DNA of 56,960 nt from Candidatus Polarisedimenticola svalbardensis (lineage in GTDB: Bacteria; Acidobacteriota; Polarisedimenticolia; Polarisedimenticolales; Polarisedimenticolaceae). Of this stretch, positions 54,579 to 56,960 are shown in pieces (the first letter of the stretch is position 1; each line of letters opens with the position of its first letter). The notes under the pieces were generated by a model, which searched no databases, was not told the origin of the DNA, and saw nothing but the letters and a program-made list of their open reading frames with translations. A program made the position numbers and the translations under genes. The stretch is taken from positions 1 to 56,960 of the forward strand of contig JACXWD010000019.1 in the NCBI GenBank assembly GCA_014764515.1, written 5' to 3'.

Positions 54579-55655
54579 ATGAAGACATATACCATCGGCG
54601 ACCTCCCCGGAGACGGAATCGGCCCCGAGGTTCAGGCTGAAGGACTCAAGGTCCTGGACGCCGTATCGAAAATCCACGATTTCAAGTACGAACTGGTGCC
54701 GTATCCCCATAGCGGTGAGCATTACCTCAAGACCGGTGAGCTGATCACCGACGCCATCATCGACCAGTGGCGGGGCCTGGACGCCGTCCTTCTGGGCGCC
54801 ATCGGCCACCCGGAAGTGGAGACCGGCCTGGTTGAGCGCTCGGTGATCCTGGGGCTGCGGTTCGGCCTGGACCTGTACATCAACCTGCGTCCGATCAAGC
54901 TGTACTCCGAGCACCTCTGCCCCCTCAAGGGCAAAGGGCCCGAACATATCGACTTCACCGTGATCCGGGAGAACACCGAGGGTATCTACTCCCAGATCGG
55001 TGGCCATCTGAAAAAGAACACCCCGGACGAGGTCGCCATCGTCAACGGGATCTACACCTGGAAAGGTTGCGAGCGTGCCTCCCGCTACGCCTTCGAAGTC
55101 GCCGACCAGCGGGCCGCGCTGCGAGGCGACGGCAAGCCGCCGACGGTGACCCTGGTGGACAAGGCCAACGCCATCCGGCCCCACGACATCTGGACCCGTG
55201 CGTTCGCCGAAGTGGCGAAGGATTTCCCCGACACGAAAACCGATCATGCCTATGTGGACGCCTGCTGCATGTGGATGGTGAAGAACCCGGAGTGGTTCGA
55301 CGTCATCGTCACCACCAACCTGTTCGGCGACATCATCACCGACCTGGGCGCCATGATCCAGGGTGGCATGGGTATCGCCGCATCCGGCAACATCCACCCC
55401 GGCAAGACTTCCATGTTCGAACCGATCCACGGCTCGGCTCCGAAATATGCCGGCAAGAACGTGGCATGCCCCCTGGGATCGGTATCGGCAGTCTCCATGA
55501 TGCTGGACTTCCTGGGCGAGACGGAAGCAGCGGCCCGTGTAGAGAAAGCGGTTGGAGCACTCCTCACCAGCGGCAAAGTCCCCTCGGCCGACGCCCGCAG
55601 CGGCATCTCTACTTCCGACATGGGCGACATGGTGCTGGAGATGCTGGAGAAGTAG
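54579..55655 (+). CDS. leuB: LeuB-family isopropylmalate/isocitrate dehydrogenase
   Basis: 358-residue NAD(P)-dependent beta-decarboxylating dehydrogenase. GGGAG stands 7 nt before the ATG. It has the N-terminal [20 protein letters not shown], the substrate loop [34 protein letters not shown], the Lys and Asp sites in [13 protein letters not shown], and the metal site [20 protein letters not shown], followed by [14 protein letters not shown]. This resembles 3-isopropylmalate dehydrogenase (leucine synthesis, third step). The closely related tartrate, homoisocitrate or isocitrate enzymes are not excluded because the substrate loop is not fully diagnostic. No other leucine gene is in the window. 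It is the last gene before the cassette region. Confidence 0.85.
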
Positions 55656-55844
55656 CTTCTCCCGCCCCGCCGGTACCGCGTAACTTCTTAGCTCCCGGAG
55701 GATGCCCAGGTATCCATGTGTCCGGAGCTGCGCTGCCGTCGTGGACCATTTCGGTACACTTGGCACTTTTCCTCGCAGTATAATCAGGTGAGATATACAG
55801 AACTTGCGAAGCAGTTTAATCCTGCAAGCAATTCAGCTGCATAC
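55656..55844. other. Boundary region between leuB and the cassette array
   Basis: A 189-bp segment with falling GC content. It holds no convincing gene; an 83-codon frame that starts at 55716 and crosses the attC-like site has no recognisable sequence. A TATAAT occurs at 55779-55784 on the plus strand, without a good -35 at proper distance. No integrase gene or clear attI is seen. This is likely where the cassette array joins the chromosome. Confidence 0.4.
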
Positions 55845-55950
55845 GCCAAACTGTTGAGTGTTAGATGGTTCTACATAACCACAATTCGAATAGGCAAAAC
55901 CTGCAAGATCCCTATCCTGCATCACTTGCCCAATTCATCTCACGTTAGGC
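55845..55950 (+). other. Putative integron attC site, imperfect
   Basis: The right end is GTTAGGC (55944-55950), the standard inner core R'. The left end is GCCAAAC (55845-55851), one mismatch from its complement GCCTAAC. Inside, GTGTTAGATGGTT on the left and AATTCATCTCAC on the right can partly pair if two T are left unpaired. The length (106 bp) lies in the normal attC range. Because the left core is imperfect, this call is less certain than the one at 56238. Confidence 0.45.
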
Positions 55951-55982
55951 AATGCGCGACTCGCTAAAGAAGGGGAGTACTG

Positions 55983-56192
55983 ATGGATTCTGACCGGAAA
56001 ATGAGAGTTGCACGAATCATTGGATTTTTCTGTTTGGCGGCAGGGACGTTGAATCTCGCAGTTGTAGCCCTGCTATTTATTCAGGGTCAACGACTGCCGG
56101 CTTCGGCTGTTCTGGTAACCGGTCTCGTTGCGTTATCGGGCGGTATCTTCATGTTGGCCTTGGCCAAGCAGAAGCCACCTTCTGGGAGTTAG
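55983..56192 (+). CDS. Small two-helix membrane protein, integron cassette
   Basis: 69-residue protein with GGGGAG 6 nt before its ATG. Two hydrophobic stretches are visible: ARIIGFFCLAAGTLNLAVVA with LLFIQ, and ASAVLVTGLVALSGGIFMLA, joined by a short polar loop and flanked by charged ends (MDSDRKMR and KQKPPSG). It has no recognisable family or motif. It lies between two attC sites, so it is the single gene of a cassette, 32 nt after one core site and 45 nt before the next. Small membrane proteins of unknown role are common in such cassettes. Confidence 0.65.
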   Translation: MDSDRKMRVARIIGFFCLAAGTLNLAVVALLFIQGQRLPASAVLVTGLVALSGGIFMLALAKQKPPSGS

Positions 56193-56237
56193 GGCTGCAT
56201 GTGGGATAAGAGGCCAAGGAGCTGGGCTGGTTTGATT

Positions 56238-56334
56238 GCCTAACAAGAGCTTCCAGCCGACGAGGCCGCTCGTCACGCCCTTGGCGGGGCCAAGGGCGCG
56301 CCAATCGTCCTCGCAGCTGAAGCCAACGTTAGGC
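56238..56334 (+). other. Integron attC recombination site
   Basis: A 97-bp imperfect palindrome from GCCTAAC (R'', 56238-56244) to GTTAGGC (R', 56328-56334). The inner arms are AGCTTCCAGC near the left and GCTGAAGC near the right; they pair except for one unpaired C in the left arm, the extrahelical base that marks attC sites and sets orientation. CGACGAGG and CCTCG extend the stem, and the centre holds a further CGCCCTTGG/CCAAGGGCG hairpin. Recombination would occur at G/TTAGGC. It ends one cassette and begins the brnTA cassette. Confidence 0.85.
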
Positions 56335-56349
56335 GCACGTTAGAAGTAC

Positions 56350-56378
56350 TTGACTAATAACTACAATGTAGTTATATT
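56350..56378 (+). promoter_or_regulatory. brnTA promoter overlapped by a 19-bp palindromic operator
   Basis: TTGACT (56350-56355) and TATATT (56373-56378) are separated by 17 nt, a near-consensus sigma-70 promoter. A perfect 19-bp palindrome lies at 56357-56375: ATAACTACA, a central A, then TGTAGTTAT. It covers the spacer and half of the -10, the position expected for repression by the BrnA antitoxin. The predicted transcription start falls at or next to the brnT ATG (56385), so the brnT mRNA may be leaderless, and no ribosome-binding site is present. The promoter lies inside the cassette, so expression does not need an integron promoter. Confidence 0.75.
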
Positions 56379-56384
56379 GCTGTT

Positions 56385-56681
56385 ATGAGCGACCTGCAGT
56401 TCGTCTGGGACTCGCGGAAGGCCAAGAGCAACGCTAAGAAGCATGGCGTCACCTTCGAAGAGGCTGAGACCGTCTTTTTCGACGAGAGTGCTCTCTTGCT
56501 CGCTGACCCCGATCATTCGGAAGAGGAAGATCGGTTTATCCTTCTGGGTGCCAGCGCGCGTCTCCGCCTGTTGGTCGTATGTCACTGCTACCGCGAATCC
56601 GAATCGACGATTCGATTGTTCAGTGCGAGAAAAGCCGATCGTGAAGAGCGTCGGCAGTACAAGGAACGGTGTCGACCATGA
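56385..56681 (+). CDS. brnT: BrnT-family ribonuclease toxin
   Basis: 98-residue type II toxin of the BrnT family (RelE-like fold), an mRNA-cleaving ribonuclease that slows translation. It has the family start FVWDSRKAKSNAKKHGVTFE with EEAETVFFDE, then DPDHSEEEDRFILLGASAR and the C-terminal RLFSARKADREERRQYK, whose Arg/Lys/Glu/Arg residues belong to the active-site region of the family. Length is normal. The stop overlaps the antitoxin gene (ATGA), so both are co-translated. It is carried in an integron cassette, where toxin-antitoxin pairs help keep the array in place. Codon use and GC appear lower than in the chromosome to the left. Confidence 0.92.
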   Translation: MSDLQFVWDSRKAKSNAKKHGVTFEEAETVFFDESALLLADPDHSEEEDRFILLGASARLRLLVVCHCYRESESTIRLFSARKADREERRQYKERCRP

Positions 56682-56896
56682 AAAAGAGTTACGATTTCTC
56701 TCAGGCGAAACGAAACCCGTATGCGAAGCGGCTCAAGCAGCAAATCACGATTCGCTTGGACAAGCCGACTATTCAGTACTTCAAGGATTTGTCAGAAGAA
56801 TCGGGGATTCCGTATCAGACTTTGATCAATTTGTACCTTCGAGATTGTGCGGTATCAGAACGCAAGCTTTCGATGCGTTGGAAAACAAGCGCGTGA
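56678..56896 (+). CDS. brnA: BrnA-family antitoxin (ribbon-helix-helix)
   Basis: 72-residue antitoxin that binds BrnT and represses the operon. ATG 56678 is chosen over an upstream in-frame ATG because it overlaps the brnT stop. The N-terminus (MKKSYDFSQAKRNPYAKRLK) is the toxin-binding segment, followed by a ribbon-helix-helix DNA-binding domain: QITIRLDKPTIQYFKDLSEE, GIPYQTLINLYLRDC. The 19-bp palindrome upstream of brnT is its likely operator. It ends 8 nt before the partial attC-like site. Confidence 0.9.
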   Translation: MKKSYDFSQAKRNPYAKRLKQQITIRLDKPTIQYFKDLSEESGIPYQTLINLYLRDCAVSERKLSMRWKTSA

Positions 56897-56903
56897 AAGC
56901 GGC

Positions 56904-56960
56904 GCCTAACACTTATAAGGCCCTCCTGAGTCAAGGCGCAAAAGTTTCCGACTGACTCTG
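56904..56960 (+). other. Partial integron attC site running off the window
   Basis: GCCTAAC at 56904-56910 is an outer core site like the one at 56238. It follows the brnA stop (56896) by 7 nt, as expected for the 3' end of a cassette. The matching GTTAGGC-type core would lie 60-140 bp downstream and is outside the window, so pairing cannot be checked. It suggests that more cassettes follow. Confidence 0.6.

Follow-up and report, generated by a model that had tools for sequence, protein, structure and literature searches.

How a group of integron cassettes comes to stand directly behind leuB with no integrase gene beside it is the question raised by the right end of the window, the stretch of 56,960 nucleotides analysed here, which is the entire contig C76 of the genome under study (G000; a draft of 180 contigs, 3.69-Mb assembly). 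A preliminary description, made from the letters of the window, read this end as a cluster of attC sites lacking its integrase. The genome used for comparison, G001, belongs to a sister species of the same genus. Coordinates outside the window carry the labels L010 (contig C13), L012 (C139) and L164 (C45) in the genome itself, and L163 (G001:C46), L179 (G001:C253) and L171 (G008:C7) in its relatives. The features at the right end of the window are these:

54579 to 55655, plus strand: leuB, 3-isopropylmalate dehydrogenase, the left chromosomal neighbour of the array.
55742 to 55950, plus strand: attI-like segment A, with TATAAT at 55779-55784 and the terminal core GTTAGGC at 55944-55950.
55945 to 56328, plus strand: cassette 1, 384 bp, bounded on the left by the core cut of segment A and on the right by that of its own attC.
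55983 to 56192, plus strand: the open reading frame (ORF) of cassette 1, 69 aa, with two hydrophobic stretches and of no known family.
56238 to 56334, plus strand, with the recombinogenic fold on the minus strand: the attC of cassette 1, from covariance model R1 and its fold.
56329 to 56912, plus strand: cassette 2 as far as an insertion sequence, the end of the cassette being on contig C13 (L010 1575-1678).
56385 to 56681, plus strand: brnT toxin gene (PF04365, 96.5 bits).
56669 to 56896, plus strand: brnA antitoxin gene (PF14384, 34.4 bits, cut-off 26.1).
56904 to 56912, plus strand: start of the attC of cassette 2, nine bases GCCTAACAC; the remainder is at L010 1575-1684.
56913 to 56960, minus strand: one end of an IS110/IS1111-family insertion sequence, from a repeat pair and the contig overlap.

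The attC of cassette 1 is genuine, because an independently trained model matches exactly there. Model R1 was built from 11 attC sites in arrays on integrase contigs of four related genomes, with the window sequence excluded, and on the minus strand it matches 56238-56334 to the base (69.8 bits, E about 3e-18). The ends of the site, R'' GCCTAAC and R' GTTAGGC, are complementary at 7/7 positions, and the bottom strand forms a long imperfect hairpin (-38.7 kcal/mol, z -7.5, 0/300 shuffles as low) in which R''/R' and L''/L' pair within the one structure, a single base remains extrahelical, and the internal GTCACG...CGCGCC layout common to the attCs of relatives is conserved. The well-formed attC of the preliminary description, for which a covariance-model match had been named as the check, is borne out by this match and fold. 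A mixed alignment of clinical-integron attCs with the window site was poor in the middle and was set aside, the attCs of relatives being used for the model instead. Searching the genome for GCCTAACA...CGTTAGGC with a gap of 40-70 bases gave no match, the true spacing being longer, and Rfam and tRNA scans of the window returned none. Other strong R1 matches in the whole assembly lie only on C45 (533-629 and 1082-1180), where positions 1-1180 hold a second small attC cluster consisting of two full sites and, where the contig begins, the end of another attC; no integrase was found on the examined part of that contig.

The two cassettes carry what the description had assigned to them, a small membrane protein and brnTA. 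Cassette 1 lies between core cuts at 55944/55945 and 56328/56329, its leading core GTTAGGC and the R'' GCCTAAC of its attC being exact complements, and its product is predicted to be a small two-helix membrane protein. Over its last 281 bp, cassette 2 is 91% identical to G001:C24:77-357, a match that sits in a different attC array with other neighbours. Directly after this brnTA cassette, a second, truncated brnT (L010 1727-1867) is followed by a 50-aa ORF without family.

The apparent stop of the array at the end of the window is an insertion sequence together with the end of the contig. The third attC, which had been noted to begin at 56904, has an IS110/IS1111-family element inserted behind its ninth base and is completed beyond it on C13, whose first 55 bases are the last 55 of the window; in this way the array goes on to the right. 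The remainder of the attC scores 31.1 bits with R1 as it stands (L010 1570-1660), and the site with both flanks joined by script folds with z -4.9. The full element occupies L010 8-1574 (about 1567 bp), with its transposase gene on the minus strand (NF033542 201 bits, cut-off 140; PF01548 and PF02371, DEDD, IS110 group). It has perfect subterminal repeats of 13 bp (13/13; window copy at 56916-56928) and a 437-nt non-coding region after the transposase gene, as IS1111 elements do, which combine such a region with subterminal inverted repeats of 11-13 bp. As possible guides for the two strands of the target, AGTGTT and CTTGCAC stand close together within that region and match the target, but equally short matches also occur elsewhere in it. 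A related insertion sequence, with 72% DNA identity to L010 8-1574, lies at about 1134-2697 of G008:C7 (L171); the two occupy the same attC end in two genera of one order, and the junctions of both read TAACACT...TAAGGCCC and GGCCTT.ATGAGTATCA.

Beyond the insertion sequence, C13 carries the rest of the attC, the truncated brnT, a possible degenerate site, rsgA, at which the array stops, and acs (the label used here for an AMP-binding-enzyme gene). A single contig of G001 (L163) carries leuB, rsgA and acs with order and orientation unchanged. The leuB found at the end of C76 is therefore expected to neighbour the rsgA found at the start of C13, and this synteny supports joining the two contigs. 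The leuB gene is well assigned (Iso_dh PF00180, 300 bits; NF002898, 412.8 bits against a cut-off of 393), and its homology to G001 stops at window position 55679, 24 bp past the stop codon. In G001 the leuB-rsgA interval holds about 0.8 kb of other sequence without these cassettes. As that interval differs and the brnTA cassette end lies in another array, the site is not a conserved non-mobile region of close relatives, the outcome that had been named as speaking against an integron array. rsgA itself is ruled out as a cassette gene, having the same position in G001 without an array. A further attC was sought before rsgA (L010 about 2009-2171), where core-like ends are present but neither a notable model match nor an unusual fold was found; the stretch is possibly an attC remnant or degenerate site. 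At the leuB locus of G001, a weak attC-like match (L163 1349-1410, 15.4 bits) follows a small membrane-protein ORF and suggests that this locus, too, once held a cassette. LeuB is 77-79% identical to proteins of Gemmatimonadota MAGs and, with a few other genes, suggests a probable placement in that phylum; the placement is tentative, since among the nearest relatives no close LeuB was found outside G001.

In front of cassette 1, the preliminary description had placed a weaker attC at 55845-55950. Model R1 gives no match across this span (best partial 6.5 bits, E about 1, 22 bases), and the fold is much weaker (z -2.5, 4/300 shuffles as low). Only the core GTTAGGC is meaningful there, as the left border of cassette 1, and the missing model match excludes an attC. 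The segment is better read as attI-like, because positions 55742-55950 are homologous to the stretch of G001 between intI and the first cassette (G001:C58:753-959; 72%, E 5e-24, with an alignment score far above 200 shuffles). That stretch follows the intI stop for about 207 bp and ends at the core of the first cassette. In the genome under study segment A likewise stands immediately before cassette 1 and terminates in a GTTRRRY core, as an attI does; it is not adjacent to intI, whereas its homologue is. Position and homology together indicate that segment A is probably an attI-like site, and transcription may start from its TATAAT box. A full copy is also present at a contig end in G001 (G001:C253:160-370, L179), before an ORF with an NAD-binding-like start and with no intI or attC in sight nearby, and partial copies of its promoter part occur on G001:C124 and G000:C6. 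Segment A may thus be a dispersed promoter-bearing element.

That no integrase is in view is correct for this contig, a profile search finding IntI on neither C76 nor C13, but not for the genome. The genome-wide HMM search that the description had proposed reveals a full-length IntI on C139 (38430-39374; TIGR02249 454.8 bits against a curated cut-off of 265), which aligns colinearly over 4-318 of 320 residues with Vibrio cholerae IntI4 of known structure (PDB 2a3v). Just after it, another tyrosine recombinase starts and runs off the contig (C139:39685-40141; L012 19520-19999); at about 109 bits (109.6) it was rejected as IntI, and since it falls below the IntI cut-off of 265 it is taken as a different or incomplete tyrosine recombinase. 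In all the compared relatives with intI and attC on one contig (G001, G007, G008, G009 and G014), intI reads towards the cassettes and the array lies past its 3′ end, an orientation likewise reported from Treponema (PMC3607928). leuB therefore stands, as had been pointed out, where the integrase would be expected, on the side and strand that intI would occupy. The accompanying remark that this lineage is less studied for integrons is countered by IntI above the curated cut-off in 27 of the 60 relatives searched; in Gemmatimonadota, integrons are already on record (PMC8618304).

The two loci become intelligible together when set beside the sister species. Synteny between the two intI loci extends over about 12-14 kb and ends with the intI stop. 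What follows intI in the genome under study is segment X (C139:39485-39551), a single-copy sequence in both genomes that is 79% identical to the sequence after leuB in G001 (E 3e-9), while segment A follows leuB in the former and intI in the latter. By these homologies the neighbours of intI and leuB are exchanged between the two species. Segments A and X show no similarity to each other beyond shuffles, and neither is detectable beside intI outside the genus or in other families. In outgroups with organism names leuB has other surroundings, and the exchange could not be polarised from these loci.

Clusters of attC sites lacking an integron integrase are termed CALINs (IntegronFinder; PMC9024848, PMC8618304). 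In the present case no integrase gene lies beside the cluster, and two attCs are present, the one at 56238-56334 and the site split by the insertion sequence, the second part of which depends on the join of C76 and C13. A complete integron would have intI adjacent to attI and array; here leuB adjoins, and IntI is encoded on C139. The original assignment thus stands in that no integrase is adjacent, but requires amendment in that the genome encodes a full-length one. Among the three proposed origins of CALINs is a rearrangement that parts array and integrase (PMC8618304), and the array between leuB and rsgA is of CALIN type and, on balance, was probably parted from its integrase by such a rearrangement within the genus. 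The locus would then represent the left end of a chromosomal array, composed of attI-like segment A, cassette 1, cassette 2 with brnTA and more cassette material on C13. Most likely, a rearrangement within the genus joined the attI-plus-array segment to leuB and would have left intI at the old locus on C139, full length and beside another segment. A simple inversion would have carried rsgA away from the array, so that one event does not suffice; a second crossover is assumed, which speculatively may have run between attC sites. To be mobilised, a cassette would need its attC bottom strand to fold and IntI to cut at G^TTRRRY; the C139 integrase, if active, would possibly have to act on the leuB-rsgA array in trans. 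The attC of brnTA was later broken by the IS110/IS1111-family element.

Other readings share parts of this evidence. The weak attC-like match at leuB in G001 (15.4 bits) may point to a swap between two array sites instead of a one-way move. It is conceivable, though doubtful, that the system is a split integron, with attI, promoter and cassettes at leuB-rsgA, IntI acting in trans and the attI-plus-array segment swapped between loci within the genus. An ordinary CALIN is rather unlikely: the C139 IntI would have used a secondary site downstream of leuB for inserting cassettes, and segment A would be a dispersed promoter-bearing repeat that happens to end in a GTT core. Off-target insertion is itself a proposed origin of CALINs (PMC8618304), an IntI is present elsewhere in the genome, and the C253 copy of segment A in G001 lies far from any intI seen; however, it leaves unexplained why intI in the genome under study has lost segment A and is followed instead by the segment that stands after leuB in the sister species. 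Rearrangement fits better, since both partners of the exchange can be seen. It is improbable that the integron is complete and only appears divided because contigs were misjoined, or a foreign one included, in this draft metagenome assembly, whose contamination is estimated at 4.86%. The assembly does comprise 180 contigs, the window does end inside an attC and an insertion sequence, and CALIN counts are inflated by fragmented genomes (PMC9024848), yet one G001 contig holds the orthologues of both leuB (C76) and rsgA (C13), the attC type and the brnTA cassette suit the genus, and the junctions of leuB with A and of intI with X lie within contigs, have no evident common repeat and are mutually complementary. 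A chance or terminator-like hairpin between ordinary genes, without any array, deserves almost no credence: the window itself has only one intact attC, but this reading is already refuted by the independent model match (E about 3e-18), comparable elsewhere in the genome only on C45, by the GTCACG...CGCGCC layout common with the attCs of relatives and by a cassette common with another array.

Integrase-less attC clusters are about as numerous as complete integrons (PMC9024848), and while the CALIN-type arrangement is already known, its formation is seldom so visible. An origin by rearrangement is usually no more than postulated; here the comparison of two congeneric species shows integrase and array alike, with the neighbours that they have exchanged, and so opens the rearrangement route to CALINs to testing. 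From a lineage whose intI genes point at their cassettes, the locus further yields an integrase together with a candidate attI, and it adds a lineage of insertion sequences that sit at attC ends in two genera.

Several known systems resemble parts of this locus. The attC-targeting IS1111-type elements ISKpn4 and ISPst6 (PMC11187229) resemble the insertion sequence in their IS110/IS1111-type transposase, subterminal inverted repeats, long non-coding region downstream of the transposase gene and insertion at one attC end, but they belong to a distant lineage, and the comparison covers element type and attC end. In Vibrio cholerae IntI4 (PDB 2a3v) the resemblance includes the integron-specific insert, which the alignment of the C139 integrase spans, although the C139 gene does not stand beside the array described here. 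Sedentary chromosomal integrons with intI towards the cassettes, as in Treponema (PMC3607928), likewise have lineage-typical attC sites, but here leuB occupies the place of intI. The likeness to CALINs (PMC9024848, PMC8618304) lies in attC-bounded cassettes, a toxin-antitoxin pair with a small orphan protein and no adjacent integrase; unlike a typical CALIN, this array opens with an attI-like segment whose homologue in the sister species adjoins intI, and the same genome retains a full-length IntI at another locus.
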